In this document: piece by piece, positions 58 to 14,759 of the stretch
Numbering within the stretch: position 1 is the stretch's first letter
How the letters are laid out: each line of letters opens with the position of its first letter
From: Thioalkalivibrio sp.
Lineage (GTDB): Bacteria > Pseudomonadota > Gammaproteobacteria > Ectothiorhodospirales > Ectothiorhodospiraceae
DNA: 14,759 nt
Direction: 5' to 3'
Assembly: GCA_007120575.1 (NCBI GenBank)
Contig: SKNJ01000279.1
Coordinates: 1 to 14,759, forward strand
Notes under the pieces: model-generated
Seen by the model: only the letters and a program-made list of their open reading frames with translations
The model's database searches: none
Told to the model about the DNA's origin: nothing
Program-made: the position numbers and the translations under genes

Positions 58-80
58 GCGGGATCCCGGGTCAGGGCAAA

Positions 81-97
81 GCCGACAGTATATCGGC
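81..97 (-). promoter_or_regulatory. Small dyad overlapping a minus-strand -10-like box
   Basis: A 5-bp inverted repeat (GCCGA / TCGGC, 7-nt loop) encloses TATACT when read on the minus strand (87-92), a good -10 hexamer about 30 nt upstream of the ATG at 57. I see no convincing -35 at the correct spacing. It may be the promoter of the leftward gene, possibly with an operator, but the evidence is weak. Confidence 0.25.
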
Positions 98-130
98 CCG
101 GCTTCGGCCGCGGCCACCGCCGGCAAAGTT

Positions 131-158
131 TTGCGCATGGCGGGAACATGCCCATACT
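131..158 (+). promoter_or_regulatory. Candidate sigma-70 promoter of the CDF transporter
   Basis: TTGCGC (131-136) and CATACT (153-158) are separated by 16 nt. Both are partial matches to the consensus. Transcription would begin near 165, leaving a leader of about 24 nt before the proposed CTG start at 189, which fits that start better than the GTG at 273. Confidence 0.25.
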
Positions 159-188
159 GGAGACTTCATTCTGTTCGGGAGAGCGGCT

Positions 189-1385
189 CTGAGCGACCCC
201 CTCGCCAATTCCGGACCGACGGTCACGGCGGAGAACGGCCAGCGCTATTGCGATACCCGCCGGGTCACGCTGGTGGGCGCGACCGTAAACACCTTCCTCG
301 CGGTGGCGCAGTTGGTCAGCGGCTGGCTGCTGAACTCGCAGGCCCTGATTGCGGATGGCGTGCATACCGTGTCCGACCTGGCCACCGACGCGGTCGTGCT
401 GTTCGCCGCACGCAAGGCCGCCGCCTCGCCCGATCAGGAGCATCCCTACGGTCACGCGCGGATCGAGACCCTGGCCACGGTGATCGTCGGGGTCTTTCTG
501 GCGTTCGCGGGCCTGGCGATTGCCTGGGCCGCCGGCAGTCGCCTGATCGAACCCGAGGCCATGACCGGCCCCGCGAACATGGCAATCGCCTTCGCGGTGC
601 TGACCCTGGTGGCCAAGGAGGGTCTGTACCAGTACACCCACCGGGTGGCAAAGCGTCTGAACTCGCGCATGCTGGATGCCAATGCCTGGCATCACCGCAC
701 CGACGCGATCTCCTCGCTGTTCGTGCTGGTCGGGGTTGGTGCGGCGGTTGCGGGCCTCCCGTGGGCGGACGCACTGGCGGCGCTGATCGTGGCGCTGTTC
801 ATCCTGCACATCGCCGGGCGCCTGATCGTGCGCAGCGCGGCGGAGCTGATCGACACCGCCCTGGAGCCGGAAAAGGTCAACCGCATCCACCGAACCATCC
901 TGGATGTACCCGGGGTGAAGGATGCGCACATGCTGCGCACCCGCCGCCACGGCAGCGATGTGGTGGCCGACGTACACATCCAGGTCGCGCCGATGATCTC
1001 GGTCTCCGAGGGCCACCGCATCGCCGACGCCGTGAATCGGGCAGTGACCGGGGAACATGAGCGGATCAACGACATTACCGTGCATGTGGACCCGGAGAAC
1101 GACGAGGAACAGGCCCGCAGCTCCGGCCTTCCACTGCGCCCCGTCCTGGTGGAGGCCCTGCGCGAGGCCTGGGCCGACACCCGGGAGCTGGACGCCGTGG
1201 AACACGTGTCACTGCATTATCTCGGCGGCCGGGTCCACGTGACCGTGACCCTGCGCCTTGACGGGGCAACACGCGGCGGCGACCTGGAGACCCGGGCAAG
1301 GGCCCTGGCGGACCGACTGCGGGCCCATCCAAAGGTCGGACACGTACTGGGCGAGGTGACGCTGCTGTACCGCCCATGCACTTAA
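189..1385 (+). CDS. Cation diffusion facilitator (CDF) metal efflux transporter, CTG start
   Basis: This is an inner-membrane divalent-cation/proton antiporter of the CDF family, about 398 residues from the proposed start. An HxxxD motif lies in TM2 (HTVSD, inside ADGVHTVSDLATD) and a second in TM5 (HRTD, inside NAWHHRTDAIS); together they form the usual transport site of zinc-type members. EHPYGHARIE follows TM2, as is typical. A cytoplasmic dimerisation domain (ELIDTALEP to HVDPEND) follows the membrane part, and then roughly 90 extra residues. The first ATG/GTG/TTG-type codon in frame is the GTG at 273, but that would delete the conserved RRVTLVGA lead-in and part of TM1. The CTG at 189 has GGAG at 178-181, 7 nt upstream, and restores the lead-in. 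The metal (Zn, Fe, Co or Ni) cannot be read from sequence. The stop is 22 nt before the first NtrC-like site of glnA. Confidence 0.88.
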   Translation: MSDPLANSGPTVTAENGQRYCDTRRVTLVGATVNTFLAVAQLVSGWLLNSQALIADGVHTVSDLATDAVVLFAARKAAASPDQEHPYGHARIETLATVIVGVFLAFAGLAIAWAAGSRLIEPEAMTGPANMAIAFAVLTLVAKEGLYQYTHRVAKRLNSRMLDANAWHHRTDAISSLFVLVGVGAAVAGLPWADALAALIVALFILHIAGRLIVRSAAELIDTALEPEKVNRIHRTILDVPGVKDAHMLRTRRHGSDVVADVHIQVAPMISVSEGHRIADAVNRAVTGEHERINDITVHVDPENDEEQARSSGLPLRPVLVEALREAWADTRELDAVEHVSLHYLGGRVHVTVTLRLDGATRGGDLETRARALADRLRAHPKVGHVLGEVTLLYRPCT

Positions 1386-1406
1386 TAGGTGCACACTACG
1401 CCCGAT

Positions 1407-1423
1407 CGCACCAAAGACGTGCT
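1407..1423 (+). promoter_or_regulatory. NtrC-type binding site 1 upstream of glnA
   Basis: GCAC-N7-GTGC (arms 1408-1411 and 1419-1422) matches the dyad of the NtrC consensus, including the CAA after the left arm. Its centre is about 120 bp upstream of the predicted sigma-54 start, in the distance range of the NtrC enhancers of enteric glnA. Confidence 0.7.
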
Positions 1424-1428
1424 ATATG

Positions 1429-1445
1429 TGCACAATGCTGGTGCG
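1429..1445 (+). promoter_or_regulatory. NtrC-type binding site 2 upstream of glnA
   Basis: TGCAC-N6-GGTGC (GCAC 1430-1433, GTGC 1441-1444) is a second dyad of the same geometry. The two centres (1415 and 1437) are 22 bp apart, close to two helical turns, so dimers would sit on the same DNA face. This spacing supports a true tandem enhancer. Confidence 0.7.
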
Positions 1446-1507
1446 CCCTCGCGCCCAACCCGACTCCGGGATACATCTGCGCCGCGCGCTCGCGCCAGCT
1501 GGCGGCG

Positions 1508-1524
1508 TTGGCACGATGCCTGCA
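1508..1524 (+). promoter_or_regulatory. Sigma-54 (RpoN) promoter of glnA
   Basis: TTGGCACGATGCCTGCA contains the -24 element TGGCAC (1509-1514) and a -12 element with its GC at 1522-1523. There are exactly 10 nt between the invariant GG and GC, as RpoN promoters require. Predicted transcription start is near 1535, giving an approximately 80-nt leader. Together with the two upstream NtrC sites this implies induction under nitrogen limitation. Confidence 0.8.
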
Positions 1525-1615
1525 TTGAATGCGGCGAAGCCGGACAAACCCGCAACGCGAACGCCCGGCGCAAATCGAACCGAATCGACCCAAGCAAAAA
1601 CTGAAGGAGACCCCC

Positions 1616-3025
1616 ATGTCCGCAGCCGACGTGCTGAACCAGATCAAGGAAAAGGAAGTCCGCTTTGTGGACTTCCGTTTCACCGACTCCAAGGGCAAGG
1701 AACAGCATGTCACCGTGCCGGCCCACGAGATCGAGGAAGAAACCTTCGAGGAAGGCAAGATGTTCGACGGCTCGTCCATCTCGGGCTGGAAGGGCATCAA
1801 CGAGTCCGACATGATCCTGATGCCGGATGCCGAGTCGGCGGTACTCGACCCGTTCTTCGAAGACATGACCATGAACATCCGCTGCGATGTGGTCGAACCC
1901 GCCACCATGCAAGGCTACGATCGTTGCCCGCGCTCGCTGGCACGCCGCGCCGAGGCCTATCTGCAGAGCACCGGCATCGCCGACTCCGCGCTGTTCGGCC
2001 CGGAGAACGAATTCTTCGTGTTCGACGACGTGAAGTGGGGCTCCGACCTGTCCGGTTCCTACTGCCGCGTGGACTCCGAGGAGGCCTCCTGGAACTCCGA
2101 GCGCGTGTATGACGACGGCAACATCGGCCACCGTCCGGGCGTGAAGGGCGGCTACTTCCCGGTTCCGCCGGTCGACAGCCTGCACGACCTGCGCTCGACC
2201 ATGTGCGAAGTGATGACCGAGATGGGCCTGGAAACCGAAGTGCACCACCACGAGGTGGCCACCGCCGGCCAGTGCGAGATCGGCGTCGGGCCCGCAACGC
2301 TGACCCAGAAGGCCGACGAGGTGCAGGTCCTGAAGTACGTCATTCAGAACGTGGCACACATGCACGGCAAGACCGCGACCTTCATGCCCAAGCCGATCGT
2401 CGGCGACAACGGTTCCGGCATGCACGTGCACCAGTCGCTGTCCAAGGACGGCAAGAACCTGTTTTCCGGTGACCTGTACGGCGGCCTGTCCGAGACCGCG
2501 CTGTACTACATTGGCGGCATCATCAAGCATGCCCGCGCACTGAACGCCTTCACCAACCCGTCCACCAACAGCTACAAGCGCCTGGTGCCGGGCTTCGAGG
2601 CACCGGTGATGCTGGCCTATTCCGCGCGCAACCGCTCGGCGTCGCTGCGCATCCCGTTCGTGATGAATCCGAAGGGCCGCCGCATCGAGCTGCGCTTCCC
2701 CGATTCCACCGCCAACCCGTATCTCGCGTTCGCGGCGATGCTGATGGCCGGCCTGGACGGCATCCAGAACAAGATCCATCCGGGCGACGCGATGGACAAG
2801 AACCTCTACGACCTGCCGCCGGAAGAAGAGAAGGGCATCCCGCAGGTTTGCCATTCGCTGGACCAGGCCCTGGAAGCCCTGAACCAGGATCGCGCGTTCC
2901 TGACCCAGGGTGGCGTGTTCACCGACGACATGATCGACGCCTACATTGACCTGAAGATGGAAGATGTCACGCGCATGCGCATGACCACCCATCCGATCGA
3001 ATTCGACATGTACTTCAGCCTGTAG
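1616..3025 (+). CDS. glnA: Glutamine synthetase, type I (GlnA)
   Basis: This enzyme condenses glutamate and ammonia to glutamine using ATP, in the cytoplasm, as the entry step of nitrogen assimilation. The product is 469 residues, the same length as E. coli GlnA. Visible signatures are the N-terminal beta-grasp region ([30 protein letters not shown]), the ATP/glutamate site NGSGMHVHQ (residues 265-273) and [10 protein letters not shown]. The adenylylation loop is NLYDLPPEE with Tyr398 counted from the initiator Met, i.e. the classical Tyr397, so the enzyme should be controlled by GlnE. The ATG at 1616 is chosen because AAGGAG (1604-1609) precedes it by 6 nt; an in-frame ATG at 1529 lies upstream of the predicted transcript. 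Transcription is from the sigma-54 promoter with NtrC sites and ends at the hairpin at 3069-3100. No glnK or ntrBC gene follows, so glnA is probably monocistronic. Confidence 0.98.
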
Positions 3026-3068
3026 GCAACAACCCGTCGCGGGCGCCCTTCGGTGCCCCGCAACACCC

Positions 3069-3100
3069 GCCGCCCCCGGCCATCCGCGGGCGGCTTTTTT
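3069..3100 (+). terminator. Rho-independent terminator of glnA
   Basis: An 11-bp stem (3069-3079 with 3084-3094, one C-C mismatch) with a CCAT loop is followed directly by six T (3095-3100). It lies 44 nt after the glnA stop. The stretch 3101-3248 up to the facing terminator holds nothing I can assign. Confidence 0.85.
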
Positions 3101-3248
3101 GTGCCCACTCTCGGCTACCCCGAATCAGCAAGTCGCAGGTTTTCGGCAGGTTCGGCCTGGTGGCCTGCCCGACAACGGCCGGGCACCAGGACCCACAACC
3201 CTACAGCCACGAGCCAGATGCAGGTCCGGGCGATGGAACGGCAGCAAC

Positions 3249-3276
3249 AAAAAAAGGCCGCCCGAAGGCGGCCTTT
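3249..3276 (-). terminator. Rho-independent terminator of the cold-shock gene
   Basis: Read on the minus strand this is a perfect 10-bp stem (AAAGGCCGCC / GGCGGCCTTT) with a TTCG tetraloop (3253-3276), followed by a run of T (A3249-A3255 on the plus strand). It starts 36 nt after the csp stop. The A-rich 5' side of the stem may give some termination in the opposite direction too, insulating the convergent glnA unit. Confidence 0.92.
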
Positions 3277-3312
3277 CCGATGCGTCCGTGGACGCGCCAT
3301 TCACTGCCGATC

Positions 3313-3516
3313 TCAGATCGCCTGTACTTCGCCGGCGGCCAGACCCTTGGCAGTTTCCTGGATCTCGAAGGAGACCTTCTGACCTTCGGCCAGGGTCTTG
3401 AAACCCGAACCGCTGATCGCGGAGAAATGGACGAACACGTCCTTGCCACCATCATCGGGGGTAATGAAACCGAAACCCTTGCTCTCGTTGAACCACTTCA
3501 CAACACCAGTATTCAC
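3313..3516 (-). CDS. Cold-shock domain protein (CspA family), GTG start
   Basis: This is a small nucleic-acid-binding protein of a single cold-shock domain, a five-stranded OB fold that binds single-stranded RNA/DNA and acts as RNA chaperone. It shows both RNA-binding motifs, KGFGFI (RNP1) and VFVHF (RNP2), plus the opening [13 protein letters not shown] and the G-VSFEI end strands. An ATG at 3534 would give 73 residues with an atypical MKRLQVV leader and no ribosome site. The GTG at 3516 gives 67 residues starting MNTGVVKWF, a standard family N-terminus, and has AAGAGG 9 nt upstream, made from the codons of the longer frame. I therefore prefer the GTG. The gene is monocistronic, with its own promoter, a long leader and a strong terminator. 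Whether it is cold-induced or constitutive cannot be told. Confidence 0.93.
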
Positions 3517-3636
3517 AACTTGTAACCTCTTCATGTAACGAACAAATGTGATCGCGAAATGCTGCCAACAGATCAACGGGAGCACTGGTTCAAAAACTAG
3601 AAACTTCCTAGTGTTGCCACACTTCCGCGACTCACG
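3517..3636 (-). other. Long 5' leader of the cold-shock gene
   Basis: If transcription starts near 3636, the csp mRNA has a leader of about 120 nt. Leaders of 100-160 nt that refold with temperature are characteristic of cspA-type genes. A small inverted repeat ACTAG-N7-CTAGT (3598-3614 on the plus strand) lies in it. I do not recognise a conserved cold-box sequence. Confidence 0.4.
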
Positions 3637-3642
3637 CTTCCG

Positions 3643-3672
3643 ACTATACGCCCGAATCCGGGCAAAAGACAA
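3643..3672 (-). promoter_or_regulatory. Candidate sigma-70 promoter of the cold-shock gene
   Basis: Read on the minus strand, TTGTCT (3672-3667) and TATAGT (3648-3643) are spaced 18 nt apart, a reasonable sigma-70 promoter about 127 nt upstream of the GTG start. Upstream of it, 3673-3895 separates this promoter from the end of the dehydrogenase gene; I see no gene and no clear terminator there, only a short CGTGG/CCACG palindrome near 3867-3876. Confidence 0.5.
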
Positions 3673-3895
3673 CGCCCTGCAACGAGAAGATTTCACACCT
3701 CTCGCGGGCCTCGCGTCGGAGCCCTTTCATTGCTCACGCCCGCCTGCCATGCACCCGTCAGCGCGAGACACGCAGCGACGCCACGCCCCCGCCGCGCCGA
3801 CATGCTGGCCGCGGAACCATACCAGACCGGATTCCGCAACAGCCCATGGTCGAGCGTGGCGCCCCGTGGCCACGGCGGGTGATACGGGCGGAGCC

Positions 3896-4612
3896 TCAGT
3901 CGAGCTGACGAATATCGACAAAGCTGCCGCGCTGGATCTCGCGCAGACGCGGCAGGACCCGGATGATCGCCCGCGCGGCAGTTTCCGGATCGGGCATGGT
4001 CTCGGTGCCACGCGCCGCCTTCAGCCGCTGCAGCACGGGGAAGCTCTCGCGGTCCGCTTCCTCGCAGAGGTAGTCCTGCATCGGGGTATCGACCAGACCC
4101 GGGGCCAGCGCGTTGATCGCCGTGGTGTCGGGAAACTCGTGGGCGTACAGCTGTATCAGCATATTGAGCGCGGCCTTGGACAACGAATAGCCGCTCCAGC
4201 CGGCGGCGCCCGAGACCGCCGCGCCGGAGGAAATCGCAACAATCTGCCGCACCGCCACCTCGCCGCGCAGGAGGGCGTCCAGGATGACCTTGTTGGCGAA
4301 GGTATTGACATCCATCAGCAGGCGCAGCTCGTCCATCGGCGCGTCCTGCATCCGCTGCATGTGACCCAGCAGGCCGGCGTTGAGGACCACAAGATCCAGG
4401 GACTCAACCCCCTCCAGCAAACGATCCATTGCCACGGCCGTGGCGTCGAAATCGGCCAGGTCCACCCGCTGGTCCGCAGCCACGCCGGCTTCCGGACAGC
4501 CACGCCGGCTCATCCCGTACACCTGCGCACCCTGTTCCAGAAGCACCCGGGTCAGGCCCTGCCCCAGGCCACTGGAATTGCCGGTGATCAACGCGGACTG
4601 GATATCACTCAT
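3896..4612 (-). CDS. Short-chain dehydrogenase/reductase (SDR)
   Basis: This is a 238-residue cytoplasmic NAD(P)-dependent oxidoreductase of the classical SDR type, the usual length. It has the Rossmann glycine motif TGNSSGLG (residues 10-17), NAG at 78-80, the catalytic Ser region ISSGAAVSG (127-135) and the catalytic pair Tyr142-Lys146 in YSLSK. APGLVDTPMQ towards the C-terminus recalls the benzil reductase/sepiapterin-reductase-like branch, but the substrate cannot be assigned. SR at 35-36, after the second beta strand, would favour NADPH (inference). The start at 4612 is supported by AGGGAG about 9 nt upstream; a frame extension upstream to 4801 is only open reading without coding character. 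It lies 154 nt downstream of the chemotaxis operon on the same strand and is probably independent of it. Confidence 0.92.
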   Translation of the reverse strand: MSDIQSALITGNSSGLGQGLTRVLLEQGAQVYGMSRRGCPEAGVAADQRVDLADFDATAVAMDRLLEGVESLDLVVLNAGLLGHMQRMQDAPMDELRLLMDVNTFANKVILDALLRGEVAVRQIVAISSGAAVSGAAGWSGYSLSKAALNMLIQLYAHEFPDTTAINALAPGLVDTPMQDYLCEEADRESFPVLQRLKAARGTETMPDPETAARAIIRVLPRLREIQRGSFVDIRQLD

Positions 4613-4633
4613 GGCTACTACTCCCTGACTGGC

Positions 4634-4653
4634 AAAACCCGGAACGCCCGGGT
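4634..4653 (-). terminator. Weak terminator-like hairpin between the switch gene and the SDR gene
   Basis: On the minus strand, ACCCGG-GCGTT-CCGGGT (4653-4637) runs into a short T run. The 6-bp stem and short T tract make it a weak candidate for the end of the chemotaxis operon. It is just upstream of the SDR ribosome site, so it might instead act on the SDR transcript. The rest of the 4613-4766 gap shows no clear promoter. Confidence 0.3.
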
Positions 4654-4766
4654 GCGCGGCGGGCCGGGGCTTGGCCGGATTGCCACCGGCACGCCCGGCA
4701 CGACCCCGAAATCCGGGGCAATGGACACGCCGAACCGCACCCGTGACCCGCTGAACACGCCGGAGA

Positions 4767-6503
4767 TTACCAGCAGTAGTCGGCCTCGACCACGTTGCCA
4801 CTACCCAGATGCCGAACCTGCCGACAAAGCCGGTGTACCAGAGTCAGCCCACGCCCCCATAACCGCTGGTCGCTCTGCCCCTCGATCATTTCACGGACCG
4901 CGGCGTGGTCGAAGCCGGGGCCGCTGTCACGCACGCGAACCCGCATACAGTGCCGGCCGCCCAGGGGCCGGTAGGCCAGGGAGATCGCGATCCGGCCCCG
5001 GACATCGCGCAGCCCCTGGGCGCGCGCCCGGTAGTAACGCTCGAAGCCCTCGGTGGTCGACTTCATCTCCGACTCGAGCCCCAGCACACCGTGCTCGAAG
5101 GCGTTATTGCAGAGCTCCGAGATCACCGTATGCAGCGACTGGACATGCTCGCCCAGCTCCGGGAACCAGCGACGCAACTGACGCCGGGCCTCTTCGGCCA
5201 GATCCGTGACCCCCAATTGCGCATCGGCGGCCTCGATCGACCAGCGCAGGGTCCCCGGCGTCAGTTCCTCGCTCGCGGCTGCACCCTCCAGGATCGTCCC
5301 GGGCGTGCAGGGAATGCCGACCAGGGTCATGTCGTCAGCCGGCGGACCCTCGCCGCCATGCGCCTCCAGCGCCTGCCAGATCTCGGTAAACAGTGCCTCG
5401 GGTGTCAAACCGGATCCACACAAGGAGGCCAGACGCTCCTCGCCAAACGCTCGCCCCTCGCGACCCACGGCCTCGGTCACGCCGTCGCTGGCCAGGAAAA
5501 CCCCGGTGGCCGCAGCAATCTCCTCGCGGCGTGGACCTCTGCCGACGTCCAGACGCGCCAGCACCCCCAGCGGCATGGCCCAGGACCCGATGCGGCGCGC
5601 CGGCGCCTCGGGCTCGCAGATCCAGACATCGGGCATACCGCCATTCCAGATATGCAGGGCACGCCCGTCCGGCTCGAAGGTCAGCAGGACTGCGGCCATG
5701 AACATGGTCGGCGGCAGGAAGTCGTGCAGAACGTGGTTCAGCTCGTGCAGCAACTCGCAGTCGCCGGCCCCTTCAGCGGTCAGGGTGTGGAAGGTCTCGC
5801 TGACCGGATAGGCCCCGATCGCGGCGGCCAGGCCGTGCCCGGTAAAATCGCCCAGCAGCACCCGCAGGCCCCCTTCGGGGGTGAAGTCCGCCAGCACCAC
5901 ATCGCCACTGAAGGTCGCGGCCGAGAGGTGCCCGACCCGAATGCGGTCGAGGCCGACATTGCGCCGGATAATCGCGCGCGAGAACAGGCTCTCGGCGGTC
6001 TCCTCCTCCCATGCCTGGCGCGCCTGGGCCCGGGCCAGCGCCTCGTTGCGCCGCCGCAGTCCCGCCTGCAGATCGCGCAAGCGCTCCATCGCGTGGATCT
6101 TCGCCTTCAGGATGGCCAGGTTCAGCGGCTTGCTGAGAAAGTCGTCACCGCCGGACTCGATTCCGCGCAGCAGCGAGTCCTCGTCATCCAGCGCGGTCAG
6201 GAAGATCACCGGCACGAAGTGATCGCCCATCTCCGCCTTGATGGTCCGGGTGGCCTGGTAACCGTCGACCCCCGGCATCATCACGTCCATCAGGACCAGG
6301 TCGGGCGGGGATCCCCGGCAGGCCTCGATCGCCTCCTGACCGCCAGCCGCCTCGACGACCTCGTACCCGGCGCGCGCCAGCATCAGGTGCAAAAGCCGCC
6401 GGTTGTGCGGATCATCGTCGACGACCAGCACCCGCCCGGCGCCAGAGACCGGCTCGGCGACCGGGTCCGCCCCGGGAAAGTCGTCTTCAGACGGCGCCGG
6501 CAT
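4767..6503 (-). CDS. REC - SpoIIE-type phosphatase - HATPase response regulator (HsbR-like)
   Basis: This 578-residue soluble protein has three domains. The receiver domain (about 23-140) has acidic residues Asp29/Asp30, phospho-acceptor Asp73 (LMDVMMP) and Lys125. A coiled-coil linker (about 138-172) leads to a PP2C/SpoIIE phosphatase domain (about 185-398) with metal-binding signatures SGD (199-201), GDFTGHG (218-224), SDG (339-341) and ADD (389-391). The C-terminal GHKL kinase domain (about 425-578) has N-box ELCNNAFEHG (463-472), RDSGPGF (525-531) and GRGL (550-553). Such proteins both phosphorylate and dephosphorylate a STAS partner, with phosphorylation of REC choosing the direction; P. 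aeruginosa HsbR has this layout. The partner is almost certainly the STAS gene ending 2 nt upstream. No good ribosome site precedes the ATG, so translational coupling is likely. All catalytic motifs are intact. Confidence 0.93.
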   Translation of the reverse strand: MPAPSEDDFPGADPVAEPVSGAGRVLVVDDDPHNRRLLHLMLARAGYEVVEAAGGQEAIEACRGSPPDLVLMDVMMPGVDGYQATRTIKAEMGDHFVPVIFLTALDDEDSLLRGIESGGDDFLSKPLNLAILKAKIHAMERLRDLQAGLRRRNEALARAQARQAWEEETAESLFSRAIIRRNVGLDRIRVGHLSAATFSGDVVLADFTPEGGLRVLLGDFTGHGLAAAIGAYPVSETFHTLTAEGAGDCELLHELNHVLHDFLPPTMFMAAVLLTFEPDGRALHIWNGGMPDVWICEPEAPARRIGSWAMPLGVLARLDVGRGPRREEIAAATGVFLASDGVTEAVGREGRAFGEERLASLCGSGLTPEALFTEIWQALEAHGGEGPPADDMTLVGIPCTPGTILEGAAASEELTPGTLRWSIEAADAQLGVTDLAEEARRQLRRWFPELGEHVQSLHTVISELCNNAFEHGVLGLESEMKSTTEGFERYYRARAQGLRDVRGRIAISLAYRPLGGRHCMRVRVRDSGPGFDHAAVREMIEGQSDQRLWGRGLTLVHRLCRQVRHLGSGNVVEADYCW

Positions 6504-6505
6504 CG

Positions 6506-6811
6506 TTAGGTAATGGTGAACAGACGGCCGAAGTTGGCGATATCGAGCACCTTGCGAACTCCCTCGGGCGCCCCGGTAACCCGGACATCGGCGAGATCGC
6601 CCCCGGCGTGTTCGCGCAGCAACAGCAGCATCCCCAGGGCCGAACTGTCCATGTATTCGGCTCGCGACAGATCCACCACGTAGCGCGTCCCCGGGCCCGG
6701 GGTATGGCGATAGGCGGCTCGGAAGGCCTGATGTTCCTCGAAGTCGAAACGCCCGCTGACGCTGATGCGGACTTCGTTGCTGTCACGGGAACTGTGCTGC
6801 TCGATGCTCAT
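6506..6811 (-). CDS. STAS-domain anti-anti-sigma factor (HsbA-like)
   Basis: This 101-residue single STAS domain is of the SpoIIAA/RsbV type. These small cytoplasmic proteins bind an anti-sigma factor or another partner only in one phosphorylation state. The conserved phosphorylation loop is MDSSALGML, with Asp55 and the acceptor Ser56 (Ser57 adjacent). The protein ends right after the last helix (FGRLFTIT). GAGGA about 5 nt upstream supports the ATG at 6811. It sits between the second receptor gene (44-nt gap) and the HsbR-like switch protein (2-nt gap). In P. aeruginosa the related HsbA binds the anti-sigma factor FlgM and a diguanylate cyclase; which partner is used here is unknown, as none is encoded in view. 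Confidence 0.92.
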   Translation of the reverse strand: MSIEQHSSRDSNEVRISVSGRFDFEEHQAFRAAYRHTPGPGTRYVVDLSRAEYMDSSALGMLLLLREHAGGDLADVRVTGAPEGVRKVLDIANFGRLFTIT

Positions 6812-6855: not shown

Positions 6856-8067
6856 TCAGAAAAGTTCGACGTCCCCGGAACCCAGGCTCTCCTGGGAGAC
6901 GGCGCGGTGATAGGTCTCCTGGCGCTGGTCACGCCACGCCCGCACCCGCGCCGCCATCGCACGGGCATCCTCGGTGGAGCGCGCCTCGTGCAGGATACCC
7001 CGCAACTCCTGAAGGTGGGTCACGGCCTCCTCGGCCGTACCCAGTGATTGCCGCGCGATGTCCTCGAACTGCAGCGAGCGCACCGCGATGGACACCGCCC
7101 CGTTCATGCGTTCACTCAGTTCCGCCTCCTCGCGGATGCGCCGGTCCATCTCTGCGGTCGCGCGCTGCGCATACTCGAACAGGCGGGTGATGCGCTCCTT
7201 CTCGCCCATGCTTTCGTTCATGTCGCGCGACGCCATGTCGTGCACCGTGCCGTGCACCTTGCGGATCGACTCGCGCGCCTCGTCGATCTGCTTGCGGATG
7301 TCGTCGTGAAAGGTCGCGGAACGCTGCGACAACGAGCGCACCTCGTCGGCCACCACCGAAAAGCCGCGCCCGGCCTCGCCGGCACGGGCCGCCTCGATGC
7401 TGGCATTGAGCGCCAGCAGGTTGGTCTGCCCGGCGATCGCGCCGGCGCTGTCCAGCAGCTTGAACACTCCGTCCATGTGCTGGCTCATATCCTCTATGTG
7501 GTGGGCGCTCTCCACGCTCTGGCGGCTGATCTGCACCAGGGTGTCGATGAACATCTGCAGGGTCTCGTCGGACTTGCGGGTGAGCTCGGTAATGACCTCG
7601 GCATGGGTCATGGCTTCATTGCCGTCATCCTGGTTGATGTCGCTGCTCATCAGCTCCATCTGGCGTCCGGCAATCTCGTGCATCTCGTTGAAACTGGAAC
7701 CAAGATCTTCCACAGCCTGGGCAATCAGCCCGCGCTGACGCCCGAGCTCCAACTCGATCTGTTCCAGCTCGAAGTTCATTGCCTGATCCAGCTCGTCGGA
7801 CAACTCCGCCCCGCCCGTCTCCGCCTCGGTCGTGGCATCCTCCCGGCGCGGCCCGTCATTGTGTCCTTGCCGCAGCAGGCCCAGCGCCAGAAGCCCCGCG
7901 ACCAGGGCCAGCACCAGCGCCGCAACCGCGGTACCGGGCCGCCCCCCGGCGAGCAGCGCGATGGCTGCGAGCAACAGCAGGCCGGCCAGTACCGCGGCCA
8001 GGGTCAGGTGGGTCGAGTGACGCGACAACCACTGCATCCGGTCTTCCAAAACACTCGCTCCTGTCAT
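6856..8067 (-). CDS. Membrane-anchored methyl-accepting receptor without a sensor domain
   Basis: This 403-residue receptor has two hydrophobic helices close together (about 21-41 and 46-66, joined by GGRPG), so it has no periplasmic ligand domain. A charged linker and long coiled coil follow. The signalling tip, [34 protein letters not shown] (about 213-245), is the CheA/CheW-binding hairpin end of chemoreceptors. The protein is short and lacks a HAMP domain that I can recognise. It ends in GDVELF, the same six residues as CheD of this operon. The ATG at 8067 overlaps the cheB stop (ATGA); AGGAG inside codons 2-4 lies 8 nt before an in-frame TTG at 8049, which is a plausible alternative start. 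It could report membrane state or a cytoplasmic signal, or be a structural array component. Confidence 0.9.
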
Positions 8068-9134
8068 CCGGCCGTGGCCGTGTTGCGATGATCGCGGATC
8101 AGGGCCGCGGCGATACCGGCCAGCGGCAGCACCTGGATGGCCGCATCCCGCTTCACAGCCTCGCCGGGCATGCCCCAGACCAGACTGGTGGCCTCGTCCT
8201 GGGCGATCGTATGAGCACCGGCCTCACGCAGCGCCAGCAGGCCCCGGGCGCCGTCATCGCCCATCCCGGTCAGCAGCGCCGCCACGACATTCGCCCCTGC
8301 CTGCTCGGCGGCCGAGTTGAACAGCACATCGACACTCGGCCGATGTCGATTGACCGGGGGGGTGACATCCAGGCGGCAGACATAGCGTGCCCCGTCGCGT
8401 GCCAGGCGAAGATGATAATCCGTACCAGGGGCCACATAGGCGTGCCCGGGCATCACGATATCGCCATCCTCCGCCTCTTTTACGGTCAGCGCGGTATTGC
8501 GGTCCATGCGCTCGGCGAAGGCCTGGCTGAACCCGGCGGGGATATGCTGGGTGATCAGGATGCCCGGGGCATCCGGCGGCAGCGTGACCAGCACCTCGCG
8601 CAGGGCCTCGGTGCCGCCGGTGGAAGCCCCTAGGACAATCACGCGATCGGTGGTCTTGAAACGCTTGTTAACCGAGTCCAGACGCTGCGGCGTCGCCGTG
8701 GGTCTGACGCTGCGTGTCTGAAGACGGACACCCGCGGCGGTGCGCACCTTGCGGGCCAGCTCGTCGGCGTAGTCCTGCAAGGCGTGCGAAACATCAACCT
8801 TCGGCTTGGTGACAAAATCCACCGCGCCGACCTCCAGTGCTTCCAGGGTCACGTCAGTGCCGTCCTCGGTCAGCGACGACACCATCACCACCGGCATCGG
8901 GCGCAGACGCATCAGGTTGCGCAGGAAGGTGATGCCATCCATCTTCGGCATCTCGACATCCAGGGTCAGTACGTCCGGGGCGAGTTGCTTGATCTTCTCG
9001 CGCGCGTCATAGGGGTCGGTGGCCGCCCCGACGACCTCGATACCGGGATCCTGCGAGAGGATCTCGCCGAGCAGCTTGCGAATCAGGGCCGAGTCGTCGA
9101 CCACCAACACGCGAACGGGACGTTTTCCGGACAT
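8064..9134 (-). CDS. cheB: Chemotaxis protein-glutamate methylesterase/glutaminase CheB
   Basis: CheB removes methyl groups from chemoreceptor glutamates and deamidates glutamines, providing adaptation; it is activated by CheA phosphorylation. This 356-residue protein has a receiver domain (about 6-125; DD at 13-14, acceptor Asp59 in LTLDVEMP, Lys110), a linker of about 35 residues, and the esterase domain (about 163-350). The catalytic triad is visible: Ser171 in GASTGG, His197 in TQHIP, and Asp293 or Asp294 in TGMGDDG. The start follows directly on the cheD stop with no spacer, and the stop overlaps the next receptor gene by 4 nt, so expression is tightly coupled to both. Full length with no sign of decay. 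Confidence 0.97.
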
Positions 9135-9758
9135 CTAGAACAGCTCCACGTCGCCGCCGACCGGTTCGGTCTCCAGACGGCGCCGGTAGTCCTGCTCGCG
9201 GTCGAGCAGGGTGTTGTTGTGCAGGGCCACGAGCTTCTTTACGCGGGCGCGCCCGCTGGACGGGAAGAACATCACCTTGCGCGGCCAGGGCCCGCCAACA
9301 TCCTCGGCCACCAAAGCCAGCCCTTCGTCGCGCATGAACTGACGCAGAAACAGGATGTTGCGCATCCCGACATCGCTCATCCCCGCCATCACTCGACCGC
9401 CCCCGAACATCTTGATCCTCAGGTCCTCGCGGTGCGCCCCCAGCTTCAGCAGTTCGTTGATCAGGAACTCCATCGCATAGGTCCCGTAGCGTGTAGCACT
9501 CGAGGTCGCTGGTCCCCAGCCTCGATCGCGATCGCCATCCGGCAGCATGAAATGGTTCATGCCCCCGACCCCGGCCTGGGGTGACCACACGCAGGCCGAC
9601 ACGCAGGAGCCGAGCACCGTGGTGATCAACTCGGATTCCGAAACCGAAACGTAGCACTCCCCGGGCAGCAGTTTCGCCGCCGGGCAGGCATGTACCCGAT
9701 CCCAGTAGCGGTTGATATGCGCGAACGCGTTGTCGTGCAGGTCCGGCAATGCGGCCAT
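9135..9758 (-). CDS. cheD: Chemoreceptor glutamine deamidase CheD
   Basis: CheD deamidates specific glutamines of chemoreceptors and, in some species, tunes the array together with CheC or CheY. This 207-residue protein has the catalytic pair Cys52 (VLGSCVSAC) and His69 (GMNHFMLP); their 17-residue spacing equals that of Thermotoga CheD Cys27/His44. SATRYGTYAMEFLIN and MFGGGRVM are further family signatures. The ATG at 9758 overlaps the cheR stop (TGATG) and has GGAGG 8 nt upstream; a frame extension of 58 codons into cheR is not needed. It has no CheC partner in view. Its C-terminus, GGDVELF, extends past the usual fold and repeats the end of the second receptor. Confidence 0.96.
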   Translation of the reverse strand: MAALPDLHDNAFAHINRYWDRVHACPAAKLLPGECYVSVSESELITTVLGSCVSACVWSPQAGVGGMNHFMLPDGDRDRGWGPATSSATRYGTYAMEFLINELLKLGAHREDLRIKMFGGGRVMAGMSDVGMRNILFLRQFMRDEGLALVAEDVGGPWPRKVMFFPSSGRARVKKLVALHNNTLLDREQDYRRRLETEPVGGDVELF

Positions 9759-10579
9759 CAGGCGGCCCTCCGGTACAGGGTCTGCTCCAGCAGGCGGAAG
9801 TCCTCGGTCACCCGGAACAGCGATTCCGAGTGCCCAATGAACAGGTAGCCCTCTGGGCGCAGTAGCTGGGCGAAGCGTTCTACCAGCTTCTTCTGGGTGG
9901 GCTTGTCGAAATAAATCAGCGTGTTTCGGCAAAATATGACGTCAAGCGGCCCCTGGATTGGCCACGCGTCGAACAGATTCAGGCGCCGGAAATGCACCAT
10001 CGACCGCAATTCGTCGCGAATTTTCACCTTGCCCTCGTTGGCACCGCGGCCACGTAGCAGCCAGCGCTGCTGGCGCCCCCCGGGAATTCCGGTAACCCGG
10101 GCGGCGTCATACACCCCCGCATCGGCATGTGCGACCACCCGCGAGTCGATATCCGTGGCCAGGATGCGGGCGCCTTCCGGCGCCCCGAGGGCCTCGGCCA
10201 GCGTCATCGCGATGGAATAGGGCTCCTCGCCGGTGGAGCACCCGGCCGACCAGATCTTCAGCGGCCCGGCGGGATTGCGCTTGCGCATCTCGTCCAGCAC
10301 CGGCCCCCCCAGCATTTCGAAGTGGTGCGGCTCGCGAAAGAAAGCGGTCAGATTGGTCGTCAGCGCATTCACGAACTCCTCGAGCTCGTCCTCGTCGCCA
10401 CCTTCCACCCGATCCAGATAGGTGTCGAAGGCCTCCAGGCCAAGCGCGCGCAACCGCCGCGAAAGCCGGCTGTACACCAGATCCTTCTTGCTGTCGTTGA
10501 GCATGATCCCGGTGCGTTCCTGCGTCAGACGCACAACGCGCCGGAAGTCGCGCTCGCTCAGCCGATCGGAGGTGGCCAT
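9758..10579 (-). CDS. cheR: Chemoreceptor methyltransferase CheR
   Basis: CheR transfers methyl groups from S-adenosylmethionine to chemoreceptor glutamates. This 273-residue protein has the helical N-terminal domain (about 1-70), TNLTAFFREPHHF (75-87), the SAM-binding loop SAGCSTGEEPYSIAM (111-125), ATDID (141-145) and VIFCRNTLIYFD (214-225). A beta-subdomain-like segment (about 165-195) is present, the part that in enteric CheR grips the receptor's C-terminal pentapeptide. That fits the EWEEF tail of the receptor encoded 20 nt upstream. CRNT replaces the more usual CRNV, a mild change. A G-rich ribosome site (GGGGGG) lies about 10 nt before the ATG. Confidence 0.97.
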   Translation of the reverse strand: MATSDRLSERDFRRVVRLTQERTGIMLNDSKKDLVYSRLSRRLRALGLEAFDTYLDRVEGGDEDELEEFVNALTTNLTAFFREPHHFEMLGGPVLDEMRKRNPAGPLKIWSAGCSTGEEPYSIAMTLAEALGAPEGARILATDIDSRVVAHADAGVYDAARVTGIPGGRQQRWLLRGRGANEGKVKIRDELRSMVHFRRLNLFDAWPIQGPLDVIFCRNTLIYFDKPTQKKLVERFAQLLRPEGYLFIGHSESLFRVTEDFRLLEQTLYRRAA

Positions 10580-10599: not shown

Positions 10600-12837
10600 T
10601 CAGAACTCTTCCCATTCCTCGGAGGCCTCCTGGCGCGAGGGCGCCGGGCCCGGGCGACCGGCGGAACTGCCACCGCCGGCAGACGCCGAACGCTTCAACC
10701 CGCTCGTGCCACCCGCCGCCCTGCTGGCGGCCGCGGAGGGCCGAGCGGTCGGCTGCGGCGCCGCCTGACCGGCTGCCGATGCCTGGACACCCTTGAAGAA
10801 GCTCATCATTTCGAGGAGCTCGCGTGACTGGTCGTCCAGCGACTCGCTCGCGGCCGCGGCCTCCTCGACCAGGGCGGCATTTTGCTGGGTAACCTCGTCG
10901 AGCTGGGTCACGGCCTTGTTGATCTCGTCCAGGCCGGTGGACTGCTCCTCGCTGGCCGCGGCGATCTCGGCAATGATGTCGGAGACCTTCTTCACCGAGT
11001 CAACGATCTCCTCCAGCGCCTTGCCGGAGTTGTCGACCAGCTTGCTGCCCTCGCCGATGCGCTCCACCGAGTCGTTGATCAGAGTCTTGATCTCCTTGGC
11101 GGCCTGGGCGCTGCGCTGGGCGAGGTTGCGCACCTCGGTGGCGACCACCGCGAACCCGCGGCCCTGTTCGCCGGCACGGGCAGCCTCGACCGCCGCGTTG
11201 AGCGCCAGCAGATTGGTCTGGAATGCGATCTCGTCGATCACCCCGATGATGTCGGCGATCTTCTTCGACGACTGGTTGATCTCGCCCATCGCCGCGACCG
11301 TCTTCTCGACGACCTGACCACCTTCCTGCGCCTTGTCACGCGCGGCGCTGGCGAGCTGATTGGCCTGGCGAGCATTGTCGGCGTTGGACTTGACCGTGGA
11401 GGTCATCTCCTCCATCGACGAGGCAGTCTCCTCCAGCGAAGACGCCTGTTCCTCGGTACGCTGGGACAGATCGGTATTGCCCTGGGCAATCTCGGCGGAA
11501 GCCGAGCGCACGTTGCCGGCGCCCTCGAGGATCTGCCCGACCAGGTTGTCGAGGTTATCCAGTGTCGTATGGATCGCGTCGCGGAAGTCCGCGAACTCGC
11601 CCTTGAAATCACCTTCCAGGCGCGCCCTCAGGTCGCCCTCGGCCATCGCCTGCATCACCCGGGAACCCTCGCGCAATGGGGGTACGACCGCATCCAGCAG
11701 TTCGTTAACGCCCTCGGCAATATTGCGTGCAAAGCCCTGGTAATCCTCGGACACCAGACGCTCGCCGAGGTTGCCGGCGGCCGCGTCCTTGATCAACGCA
11801 TCGATGGCATCCTCGGCACGGCGCATCTCGGTAATGTCGCGCCACTCGACCATGTTGCCGGCGTAGTTTCCGTCTTCGTCGACGATCAGGGTCGCGTTCA
11901 GATTGAACTGTAGATCCGCAACCTGAATGTTGGCTTCGTAGGGCAGGCGCGCGGGATTCTGCAGGATCGCACGCTGGTGCGACGGGTCCTTGTGAAACTG
12001 GTCGATCGACTGGCCCAGCAGGTTGTCCGGATCAAAGCCCGGTAACTCGCGACGCAAAACCTCCCCACGCTCGCGCAGCAACTGCTTTACCGCCGGGTTG
12101 GCATAGACGATATTCATGTCGGGGTCGCACATCATCAGCGCAGTCTGCGAGCTCTCCACTGCCGCCCGCATACGGGCCCGGTCGCGTTCCATGCGTGCCT
12201 GCTCGGTGATGTCCTGCCACTCGACCATGTTGCCCAGATAGTTGCCGGCATCATCCATGACCGCCGTCGCGTTCAGGCTGAACTGGAGGTCGGCGACCGC
12301 GATCTCGGCCCGATAGGGCAGACGCGCGGGATTCTGCAGGATCGCACGCTGGTGCGACGGGTCCTTGTGAAACTGGTCGATCGACTGGCCCACCAGGTTG
12401 TCCGGATCAAAGCCCGGGAACTCGCGGCGCAGGGTGTCGCGACGCTTGCGCAGAAGGTCGATCACCGCCGGATTGGCGTAGATGATGTTCATGTCGCTGT
12501 CGCACATCATCAGCGCGGTCCGGGCCCCTTGCACGGCGGCACGCATGAAGAGGCTGTTCTGGTCACTGCCAATGTCGGTTTGCGGGTTCGCTGCCATGGG
12601 GGTGTCCTCGCTTTGCTTGTTCGTCTGACGCGCCGCCGGGGTGCGGCGACGTGCGGGTTTGTTTTTCATCGGGGCCGTGGGGGATTGCGTGGCGGGGGCA
12701 TCGGATGCCGCTGTATCCCCGCCCGCGCCATCATCACGCGTTGACTCGGTGGCAACACCGGTCGTGCCGGATTCTGCATCCGGGTCCAGCCATCCCAGCG
12801 GGTCATTGCCCAGCTTGTTGCGCTTGCGTGTCGTCAT
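10600..12837 (-). CDS. Soluble chemoreceptor with basic N-terminal tail, two PAS domains, HAMP-like linkers and CheR-docking tail
   Basis: This 745-residue methyl-accepting protein has no transmembrane helix, so it should work in the cytoplasm. Residues 1-100 are disordered and charged: a basic start (MTTRKRNK), the small motif [10 protein letters not shown], an Asp/Thr/Ala-rich stretch, and a basic patch around 58-75. Two PAS domains follow (about 101-222 and 226-347, exact 125-codon period), each with [28 protein letters not shown] and GNMVEW-DIT. HAMP-like helices (about 345-430) lead to the signalling domain with hairpin tip around [20 protein letters not shown] (534-553) and methylation-type EE pairs. 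An Ala/Ser/Pro linker (about 685-738) ends in EEWEEF, matching the CheR-binding xWxxF pentapeptide. The general plan recalls P. aeruginosa Aer-2/McpB. PAS ligand unknown. The ATG at 12837 has only a weak GGGT site; an alternative ATG is at 12597. Confidence 0.94.
11948..12042. repeat. Nearly identical intragenic repeat, copy B (second PAS domain)
   Basis: This 95-nt segment matches 12323-12417 at 94 of 95 positions, 375 nt away. It encodes the PGFDPDNL to NPARLPY part of PAS2. The flanks of the two PAS copies have diverged much more. Confidence 0.9.
12323..12417. repeat. Nearly identical intragenic repeat, copy A (first PAS domain)
   Basis: This is the partner of 11948-12042. The single internal difference (12393 versus 12018) changes Val to Leu. 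The unit lies in frame with an exact period of 125 codons. Confidence 0.9.
12595..12609 (-). promoter_or_regulatory. Strong internal ribosome site and ATG within the soluble receptor gene
   Basis: On the minus strand GAGGA (12609-12605) stands 7 nt before an in-frame ATG (12597-12595), codon 81. It is a better ribosome site than the one at 12837. Starting here would yield a 665-residue receptor with both PAS domains but without the charged N-terminal tail. Confidence 0.5.
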
Positions 12838-12854
12838 CTTGTGTTACCCATGCA

Positions 12855-13637
12855 TCAGGCCTGGGCGGCCTGGGGGTCCGCGGACATGCGTTGCCCGCCC
12901 GCGGCCACCAGGTCGTCCGCCAGGTGGAGAAAGTCCTCGGCCGCACGATGGCGCGACTGATACTCGAATATGGTCTGGCCAAAACTGGGGCTCTCGGCGA
13001 GCACCACGCTCTCGCGGATGGTCGTCGGCAGAAGGCCCTCCCCGAAATGCTCGCGGATGCGCTCGCGGACCTCGCGCGAGTGGCGGCGCTGCTCGACAAA
13101 CCGGGACAGCACAACCCACTTGGGGCGCTCACCGCCCAGGCGGTCCTCCACCCCCTGCAGGATGCGCATCAGGCGCGACAGCCCGTTCAGGGAGAGGAAA
13201 TCCCCGGCCACCGGGATCAGCATCTCGCTGGCGGCGATGATCGCGTTCATCCCCAGCAGACCGGCCGACGGCGGGCAGTCGATCAGTACGAAGTCGAACG
13301 GCTGGCGCAGGTCCTCCAGCGCGCGCTTCAGGCGCCAGCCGCGTTCTGCACCACCCTCGTTCAGGTTCTCGACCTCCTGCAGGTGCTCGCCGGCCGCAAC
13401 GATCTGCAAGCCGTTGCCGGCCTCGCTACAGGCATCTTCCAGGCGCGCCTCGCCATGCAGGACCCGGTCCAGGCCGACCGGGTCCTCGAGGCCGAAGGCC
13501 ATGGTCAGGTGACCCTGCGGGTCGGCATCGATCGCCAGCACGCGATACCCGCGCAGCGCCAGGGCATGCGACAGGTTCAGCGTGACGGTGGTCTTGCCGA
13601 CCCCGCCCTTCTGATTGATCACGGCGATCGTTCGCAT
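12855..13637 (-). CDS. ParA/MinD-family ATPase of the chemotaxis operon (PpfA-like)
   Basis: This 260-residue ATPase has the deviant Walker A motif KGGVGKTT (residues 10-17, signature Lys10 and Lys15), Walker A' DADPQG (37-42) and Walker B FVLIDCPPS (116-124). Such proteins dimerise with ATP, bind DNA non-specifically and move cargo when a ParB-like partner stimulates hydrolysis. Several Arg/Lys residues around 178-196 could contact DNA. No parB or parS-like array is present; instead the gene lies between cheW (19-nt gap) and the soluble receptor (17-nt gap). That context points to positioning of chemosensory arrays, as for R. sphaeroides PpfA acting on TlpT, rather than chromosome or plasmid partition. 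The basic tail of the neighbouring receptor is the likely partner (inference). Confidence 0.93.
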   Translation of the reverse strand: MRTIAVINQKGGVGKTTVTLNLSHALALRGYRVLAIDADPQGHLTMAFGLEDPVGLDRVLHGEARLEDACSEAGNGLQIVAAGEHLQEVENLNEGGAERGWRLKRALEDLRQPFDFVLIDCPPSAGLLGMNAIIAASEMLIPVAGDFLSLNGLSRLMRILQGVEDRLGGERPKWVVLSRFVEQRRHSREVRERIREHFGEGLLPTTIRESVVLAESPSFGQTIFEYQSRHRAAEDFLHLADDLVAAGGQRMSADPQAAQA

Positions 13638-13656: not shown

Positions 13657-14178
13657 TTACGCCGGGGCCCCCTCGTGAATCGCGTGCTCGCTGGCGATCA
13701 GGCCCGGCCCGAGCAGGGTGTCGATATCCAGCATCAGGATCATCTTGTCGTCGACGGTCGCCAGGCCACGCACGAAATCAATACCGATCCGGGTCCCGAA
13801 GTCGGGGGCCGGCTGCAAGTCGCCATCGCCGATGCTGTAGACCTCGGAGACCGCGTCCACGACCACGCCCATCACTCGTTCGCGGTCCTCGTTCACCACC
13901 CGCAGCATGATCACCACGGTAATCGGCCCGTATTCGAGCGGCTCCATGCCGAAACGCAGGCGCATGTCGATGATCGGCACGATCATGCCGCGCACGTTGA
14001 TCACACCGCGGATGTAGTCCGGGGTATTGGGCAGGGGTGTCGGGCGCTCCCAGCCCTTGATCTCCTGCACCCGCAGGATGTCCACGCCGTACTCTTCCTC
14101 CGCGAGAATGAAGGTGAGGTACTGATCCTCGCCGGCGGTCGCCGGGTCGTGGATGGACTGGGTTGCATCGTTCGCCAT
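13657..14178 (-). CDS. cheW: Chemotaxis coupling protein CheW
   Basis: CheW joins CheA to the receptor tips in the chemosensory array. This 173-residue protein is a single CheW/SH3-like domain after a short tail: QYLTFILAEEEYGVDILRVQEI (19-40), PNTPDYIRGVINVRG (50-64), IVPIIDMRLRFG (66-77), and a final strand DKMILMLDID. AGGAGT 7-9 nt upstream supports the ATG at 14178. It follows cheA by 20 nt and precedes the ParA-like gene by 19 nt, so it is the middle of the operon. Nothing is unusual in it. Confidence 0.97.
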   Translation of the reverse strand: MANDATQSIHDPATAGEDQYLTFILAEEEYGVDILRVQEIKGWERPTPLPNTPDYIRGVINVRGMIVPIIDMRLRFGMEPLEYGPITVVIMLRVVNEDRERVMGVVVDAVSEVYSIGDGDLQPAPDFGTRIGIDFVRGLATVDDKMILMLDIDTLLGPGLIASEHAIHEGAPA

Positions 14179-14198: not shown

Positions 14199-14759
14199 TC
14201 AGGCCGCGCGGGTGTCACGCCCGGCGGTCATCCGCGCGATCCCGGCGACATCCAGGATCAGGGCCACCTGGCCGTCCCCGAGGATGGTCGCGCCGGCGGT
14301 GCCGGGGACTTTGCGGAAATTGGTTTCCAGCGTCTTGATCACGACCTGCTGCTGGCCCAGCAGGTCGTCCACCCGCAGCGCCACGCGCTGGTCGTCGGCC
14401 TCGGCCACCACCAGCAGGGCACGCTCCGGCAGCGGGCTGGGCTCGGTTCGGCCAAATAGCGCCGCGAGATCGATGATCGGGATGTATTCGTCGCGCAGGC
14501 GGTACAACGGCAGCTTGCCGAAGGCCTGTTTCACGCTCTCCGGCAGCGTCTGCAGCGACTCGACGATCGCGATCAGCGGGATCACGAAGGTCTCCTCGCC
14601 GATTTTCAGCAACTGGCCATCCATGATCGACAGGGTCAGCGGCAGGCGGATGGTCAGGCGCGAGCCCTTGCCCGGCTCGGATTCCAGTTCGACGTTGCCG
14701 CCCAGGCCGCGGATGTTTTTCTTGACCACATCCATGCCGACCCCGCGACCGGACAGGTC
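14199..14759 (-). CDS. cheA: Chemotaxis histidine kinase CheA, C-terminal part (partial)
   Basis: The frame enters from the right edge and the last 186 codons are visible. It begins inside the ATPase domain at the G2 box DLSGRGVGMDVV, with the following NVELESEPGKGSRLTIRLP strand typical of CheA. The CheW-like regulatory (P5) domain comes next: LTLSIMDGQLLKIGEETFVIPL, RLRDEYIPIIDLAALF and the closing GATILGDGQVALILDVAGI. CheA autophosphorylates in response to receptors and passes phosphate to CheY and CheB. The phosphotransfer, CheY-binding and dimerisation domains lie outside the window, so their state cannot be judged. Confidence 0.97.
   Translation of the reverse strand, partial: DLSGRGVGMDVVKKNIRGLGGNVELESEPGKGSRLTIRLPLTLSIMDGQLLKIGEETFVIPLIAIVESLQTLPESVKQAFGKLPLYRLRDEYIPIIDLAALFGRTEPSPLPERALLVVAEADDQRVALRVDDLLGQQQVVIKTLETNFRKVPGTAGATILGDGQVALILDVAGIARMTAGRDTRAA

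Follow-up and report, generated by a model that had tools for sequence, protein, structure and literature searches.

What does a ParA-like ATPase act on when its gene lies in a chemotaxis (che) operon and no parB is found beside it? Cells contain several ParA-type ATPases, and for many of them the partner that links the ATPase to its cargo is unknown (PMC10241942). The question is raised by a 14,759 nt stretch of DNA from Thioalkalivibrio sp. (contig SKNJ01000279.1), called the window below. On its minus strand, parA (13637-12855) is followed after 17 bp by the gene for a soluble receptor (12837-10600), both lying where the original prediction had placed them. We propose that this receptor acts as the partner of ParA in the che operon by way of a short N-terminal tag, which sequence comparisons make likely.

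A ParA-like ATPase directly precedes a membrane-free receptor

The parA gene (12855..13637, minus strand) encodes a ParA/Soj-like ATPase of 260 aa with the deviant Walker A motif KGGVGKTT. Pfam assigns it to AAA_31 (1.1e-41) and CbiA, its AlphaFold model reaches a predicted local distance difference test (pLDDT) score of 88, and the best matching folds in the PDB are those of Soj (2bek) and ParA (8ray). The receptor (10600..12837, minus strand; 745 aa), the predicted ParA partner, has two PAS domains, HAMP_2 and an MCPsignal domain (residues 494-650, 10888..11358; PF00015, 2.1e-59). Pfam shows only PAS, HAMP and MCPsignal domains in this protein and no DNA-binding or CTPase domain of ParB, and parB was absent among the ten window proteins scanned with Pfam. 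A membrane span was not predicted for the receptor, as no 19-residue segment reached a hydropathy of 1.6 (maximum 1.26). Pfam, fold matches and hydropathy thus bear out the arrangement originally described, a ParA-like ATPase directly ahead of a membrane-free chemoreceptor.

The receptor begins with a short conserved island

Residues 1-91 of the receptor were modelled by AlphaFold with pLDDT below 50 and without secondary structure (a weak model with a mean pLDDT of 58, from 17 sequences), in keeping with the disordered N-terminal tail of the original prediction, which had put its length at about 100 residues; here it is some 90. The basic clusters described there are present as residues 4-8 and 58-75, and so is the compact motif (residues 11-20). 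Conservation and linker variability were judged from an alignment of 17 receptors of the genus. Residues 1-17 (12787..12837) form a conserved island, in which M1, R4, K5, R6, N7, K8, L9, G10, D12, P13, L14, G15 and W16 are invariant, i.e. 13 of the first 16 positions. There is no invariant column in residues 17-62; the next invariant residue is R63, and a second basic island is kept around R63-R65.

The conserved start could be a translational or RNA feature, or result from a misplaced start codon, instead of being a protein motif; an in-frame ATG at residue 81 could indeed start a tail-less receptor. Codons 2-17, however, show more synonymous than non-synonymous change (ratio of non-synonymous to synonymous polymorphism, pN/pS, 0.19; ten sequences including two identical pairs), and the same peptide heads proteins which are unrelated beyond it (see below). 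We consider this explanation very improbable, and a misplaced receptor start was rejected on the basis of the pN/pS value.

The general form of the tag is [LIM]-G-x-D-P-L-[AGS]-W-[LMI]. The version of the window, LGNDPLGWL, comprises residues 9-17 (12787..12813) and is, from its linkage to parA, the predicted ParA-docking and ParA-activating motif. Compared with solved structures, the tag peptide gave nothing beyond two matches at chance level (E 0.83, 0.92).

The tag is linked to one type of ParA

A DNA pattern of the genus tag was found in 10 of the 47 genomes sampled from the family, 30 of which belong to the genus. These ten are the genus genomes having a close ParA (84-100% identity), while the eleventh ParA genome of the sample, G044, has the tag variant MGNDPLAWL. 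Relatives of receptor residues 1-360 (E 1e-20) were restricted to the same ten (10 of 30 genus genomes, none of 20 others), so that no tail-less version was seen in that sample. The 20 relatives of residues 1-130 are, where a source is named, mostly from Thioalkalivibrio.

Among 81 loci with a ParA relative, the tag directly follows parA in 26 (all of L046-L069, L071 and L078) and a ParB-type LGxGL motif in 12 (two of them, L088 and L119, doubtful); in 43 the expressions used detected neither. Of 370 gammaproteobacterial genomes sampled evenly, 43 have a ParA at E 1e-50 or better. The gene following parA, classed partly by eye, bears the strict tag in 34 of these, a degenerate tag in six (L133, L139, L149, L152, L153, L156) and no tag in three; one of the 34 strict cases, G250, is split between two contigs, adjacency being presumed. 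To avoid redundancy, partners were restricted to those whose ParAs are less than 85% identical (n = 44). The strict motif occurs within the first 60 residues in 42 of these 44, and within the first 100 residues in none of the 274 other che-type open reading frames (ORFs) of the loci compared, partners removed; ORF starts were assigned mechanically for both counts (nearest ATG).

The linkage also holds in the opposite direction. The pattern GGNNNNGAYCCNYTNKCNTGGMTN, which misses some tag variants including that of the window, matched 32 of the 370 genomes (reversed control: 1), and 28 of the 32 are ParA genomes (Fisher p 4.9e-27). In 27 cases the match shares the strand of parA and lies 2-393 bp downstream of it; the 28th is at the edge of another contig, and parA there ends its own contig. 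The remaining four matches fall inside a longer frame or in a short one, never at a gene start. The original prediction had named homologous tails in genomes lacking a linked parA as the case that would speak against it; with this one pattern, none was found at a gene start in the 370 genomes.

In the phylum sample, 116 of 397 genomes matched. Of the 29 loci examined besides that of the window (L208-L236), 3 have the tag, 19 parB and 7 neither. The tagged loci L208 and L209 belong to another class of the phylum, and the P0161 adaptor, which is 94% identical to the L208 adaptor, is named as zetaproteobacterial. The tag is a real and widespread feature.

The tag is found on different carriers

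Pfam analysis of the genes following parA identified, besides the PAS receptor of the window, globin-PAS receptors (L058, L061), STAS adaptors (L062, L063, L136, L145, L208 and, under the curated threshold, L155), a globin-STAS adaptor (L163) and a CheW protein (L078). The 44 non-redundant partners consist of 23 receptors, 18 STAS proteins (L071 and L153 by our own assignment), one globin-STAS protein, one CheW and one protein too short to be classed. Carriers change at least five times on the ParA tree (see below), with four changes between receptor and adaptor.

Across eleven STAS adaptors with 21-30% identity to the first, eight columns never vary: the initial M, the tag residues G, P, L, A and W, and two positions in the STAS domain. 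Names given to such adaptors include STAS domain protein, anti-anti-sigma regulatory factor, and MlaB component of an ABC-type transporter Mla. The tag is present in all 120 adaptor matches listed of 662, a count which is not independent because candidates were picked by shared words. At L148 and L150, a ParA of the same clade is followed by an untagged STAS protein, and the stretch examined has no other che-like ORF.

Nearly all tagged genes occupy one operon place, so that linkage to parA and linkage to cheR, cheD and cheB are mostly shared. The tag might therefore bind another component of the array or the pole (CheA, CheW, a pole anchor) and merely share the operon with parA. Against this, three genomes of one family have parA and a tagged STAS gene as a two-gene module (L155:2462-3732, L159:2998-4196, L160:3001-4245), where no ORF resembling the che proteins of the window was found within about 3 kb of the pair; this indicates that the tag goes with parA rather than with the che operon. 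Moreover, after the other ParA the same place is taken by parB with its different motif. Binding to another component is thus quite unlikely, and a ParA-binding tag is the reading we follow.

The conservation of the tag, its two-way linkage to a ParA clade, its spread over carriers and the altered pocket of this ParA (see below) are facts of the sequences compared.

Some additional starts near parA were observed. Two acidobacterial loci (L070:1186-1644, L072:2964-3339) have a ParA, no che-like ORF on the stretch, and then a small protein starting with MANKPRMGSDPFQKKNPLGWID or MSQKPRMGSDPFQRKDPLGWID, possibly a doubled or stretched tag. A spirochaete che locus (L084) has the start RLGSDPFDFL near ParA. 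At L109:6753-9188 (Spirochaetota), a CheA-like ORF located directly 3' of parA begins with MKKKKVLLGETFKNLL / MKKKKVLLGETFKNLLQ. In the deltaproteobacterial loci L096 and L119, the gene after parA encodes a protein of 140-145 aa that starts with a ParB-like LGxGL, and it lies ahead of ORFs resembling methyl-accepting chemotaxis proteins (MCPs), CheW and CheB.

The tag is kept without basic residues

ParA/MinD activators are usually described by their positively charged N-termini, TlpT and McdB being named as examples (PMC7993993). In 9 of 38 partners, the net charge ahead of the motif is zero or negative; this count omits six partners whose nearest ATG falls inside the tag, where a nearest-ATG start understates the charge. 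By our tally, 15 of 23 receptor partners but 2 of 18 STAS adaptors possess a further basic stretch, with a charge of at least +7 over 18 residues. Residues 58-75 of the window receptor (12613..12666) are such a +7 stretch, conserved in the genus around R63. Since the stretch is common in receptors and rare in STAS adaptors, it is not part of the general signature of parA-linked partners. Basic clusters were accordingly rejected as a general activating element, the tag being kept without charge. What the original prediction called the ParB of the system is partly supported in that a ParA-partner function is placed, by the linkage of the tag, in the receptor's own N-terminus; the conserved element, however, is GxDPLxW and not charge.

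The basic residues raise another alternative, that the tail binds nucleoid DNA directly and does not target ParA. FrzCD of Myxococcus is, like the window receptor, a cytoplasmic receptor with a basic N-terminus; it is located on the nucleoid, and its basic N-terminal tail binds DNA directly (PMC5716589). Residues 4-8 and 58-75 of the window receptor, and the +7 stretch in most receptor partners, would fit such a role. On the other hand, the N-termini of FrzCD vary in sequence between species and only the charge is kept (PMC5716589), whereas the adaptors retain G, P, L, A and W and the tag persists where basic residues are missing. Direct DNA binding in place of ParA binding therefore seems unlikely. 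The second island may nevertheless add DNA binding to the tag-ParA contact and so, by analogy with FrzCD, may help the receptor array to hold the nucleoid.

The ParA of tagged loci forms a clade with an altered pocket

A tree of 56 ParAs places the 44 tagged ParAs and 6 without strict tag on one side and six chosen parB-linked ParAs on the other (100/99), 20 of its 53 inner branches being weak. The Walker A residue K31 has its equivalent in 43 of the 44 tagged ParAs, with one gap. The genus has a paralogous chromosomal ParA as well (36-40% identity), and at 18 of 18 loci the gene behind it is parB with MAKRGLGRGLDALL or a similar motif. At E 1e-40 this second ParA is seen in nine of the ten che-ParA genomes, the exception being the incomplete genome of the window (344 contigs, 2.15 Mb, completeness 67%).

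In ParB, a short N-terminal peptide docks at the edge of the ParA dimer and stimulates hydrolysis (PMC12462528). For Myxococcus xanthus, ParB residues L11, R13, L15, L18 and I19 were reported to bind a ParA pocket formed by V116, L150, L152, L155, L187 and L192, with R13 close to Y81, E82, D110 and E117 (PMC12462528). We transferred this numbering via chain 8ray, whose residues match the article at the positions checked, and compared the 44 tagged ParAs with 31 having a ParB-type motif downstream (including the doubtful L088 and L119). Position L150 is S or A in 42 of 44 tagged ParAs and L in 30 of 31 of the ParB type; position D110 is R or K in 26 of 44 and D or E in 28 of 31, respectively. 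Position Y81 is D or E in 40 of the 44 tagged ParAs. The ParB-contact positions diverge more between the two groups than other positions (permutation p 0.003). In the proposed complex, the small residue 150 would face the W of the tag, and the basic residue 110 its D.

Chromosomal parA and its partner gene stand in the same order. Visual inspection also gives a gap-free alignment of tag and ParB motif over nine residues, with an L-G start and a hydrophobic end in common; L152 (MGDDPLAAL) and L153 (MGHDPLAAL) look intermediate. The ParB core L-G-[RK]-G-L-x-A-L-[LI] has a basic centre, whereas the che tag has x-D-P-L there and a W.

Several observations weigh against the tag as a ParA-binding element with its own pocket. 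No tag follows parA at L148, L150 and L165 (3 of the 43 loci). Linkage by itself would also fit another function in that position of the operon. Since the two ParA groups fall into separate clades, descent may account for the pocket difference. The partner at L078 has the tag LGSDPLSWI, and yet its ParA has a ParB-type pocket with Y81, E82 and L150, so that the pocket change is not required for the tag. For these last two reasons, pocket co-change was dropped as proof of recognition. Homology of the tag with the ParB motif is not claimed, as a ParB matrix did not give tagged starts higher scores than the background (median -7.5 vs. -4.1; p 0.9999 in the test for higher scores). With respect to nucleoid binding, R238, which we take to be a DNA-binding residue of ParA, is replaced in all 44 tagged ParAs. 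The basic residues 235 and 238 of parB-linked ParAs are lost in tagged ParAs, K or R are common at 219 and 234, and R205 and R/K210 are gained, each in 44 of 44. With R238 replaced and R205 and R/K210 conserved, the DNA-binding face, if kept, has moved. R238 was mutated to E in the ParA* variant (PMC12462528).

Relation to known systems

The closest likeness is to PpfA/TlpT of Rhodobacter sphaeroides, as originally proposed, and the principle is already in print. Both systems have a ParA-like ATPase adjoining a soluble receptor in a che operon, and no parB. The N-terminus of TlpT contacts PpfA and is thought to stimulate its ATPase in the manner of ParB (PMC3964821). Of 206 species, 77 were reported to have a PpfA homologue in a che operon, and in 86% of these cases there is a putative cytoplasmic receptor (PMC2829493). 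The window shares with this type a membrane-free adjacent receptor with N-terminal extension and the order cheA-cheW-parA-mcp-cheR-cheD-cheB. The present system differs in that the carrier varies (receptor, STAS adaptor, CheW); TlpT was compared by description, not by sequence.

ParC/ParP of Vibrio also consists of a ParA-like ATPase and a partner with its N-terminal ATPase-binding part on a long linker, and this part still places arrays when moved to the P5 domain of CheA (PMC5706961). ParP, however, is a CheW-like protein with an SH3-like AIF domain, and its arrays go to the pole, while the window partner is the receptor itself. A CheW partner was seen in one relative, L078. In Halothiobacillus, the che-operon ParA termed ParC (Hn0722) is required for cluster assembly; Hn0722 alone failed to complement but Hn0722-Hn0723 complemented (PMC10241942). 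The authors docked CheW as its partner, and our comparison with this system is by description, not by sequence. With ParABS, the deviant Walker A ParA fold is shared, but the receptor shows no ParB family.

Genes in the vicinity

A Thioalkalivibrio-like che operon on the minus strand fills much of the window. The 3' part of cheA (14199..14759, with the CheW-like domain), truncated at the window end, has full-length counterparts in relatives (e.g. L047), and is followed by cheW (13657..14178; PF01584, 2e-34), parA and the receptor gene. The receptor ends with EEWEEF (10603..10620), and EEWEEF or DWEEF is found in the complete relatives aligned. We take this end to resemble the C-terminal CheR/CheB tethering pentapeptide of E. 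coli receptors. Further downstream are cheR (9758..10579; PF01739, 9.5e-64), a cheD ORF (9135..9932; PF03975, 2.2e-28) whose real start is perhaps near 9758 (several relatives have 207 aa), and cheB (8064..9134; PF01339, 6.9e-62). The second MCPsignal protein, in an mcpA-like position (6856..8067; 403 aa; PF00015, 8e-26), is hydrophobic near residues 47-65. Because of this strong N-terminal hydropathy (2.79 over 19 residues at residue 47) it is probably membrane-bound, unlike the first receptor. A STAS protein without tag (6506..6811; PF13466, 9.7e-17) and a response regulator-SpoIIE phosphatase-HATPase protein (4767..6503; PF00072, PF07228, PF13581) complete the operon, all on the minus strand.

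The original assignment to an F7-like operon agrees with the gene order published for F7 stage 1 (cheA, cheW, PAS receptor, cheR, cheD, cheB, mcpA-like gene, STAS, serine phosphatase; PMC7184735, gene order only). The published order contains two cheW-like genes while the window has one, and parA is extra; the word ParA does not occur in that F7 account.

By eye, positions 1-4801 contain two plus-strand ORFs, of which 3-1385 resembles a cation diffusion facilitator gene and 1529-3025 one for glutamine synthetase, and a minus-strand ORF (3896-4801) resembling a short-chain dehydrogenase gene.

Proposed mechanism and implications

The tag is probably the handle by which ParA moves chemotaxis clusters around the cell. 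It would bind ParA, stimulate ATP hydrolysis and thereby serve array positioning, and by analogy with PpfA the nucleoid would be the track. With its many tags, a cytoplasmic receptor array would dock on nucleoid-bound ParA and let go of it again and again, and so be drawn along it; in this way arrays would become spaced out and be inherited. Each alternative carrier (globin-PAS receptor, STAS, globin-STAS, CheW) would presumably tie a Che complex to ParA.

The general idea of an N-terminal 'luggage tag' has been published (PMC10241942), and the PpfA/TlpT principle and the occurrence of parA in che operons are known. The motif and its portability are apparently new: neither the motif nor STAS adaptors as ParA partners were found in the open-licence literature searched, most subscription journals being outside this scope. 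On balance, we favour the view that [LIM]GxDPLxW[LMI] serves one ParA clade as a luggage tag that is natural and portable, moved in evolution among receptors, globin receptors, STAS adaptors and CheW, and that tag and pocket together are a second recognition code, separating this ParA from the chromosomal ParA/ParB of the same cell.

A motif that can be read from sequence would then point to the probable partner throughout one ParA clade. It predicts that STAS proteins which now carry the annotation anti-anti-sigma factor or MlaB act as positioning adaptors. Together with its paired ATPase pocket, a peptide of some 20 residues would also offer a handle for the study of specificity and perhaps a means to move artificial cargo.

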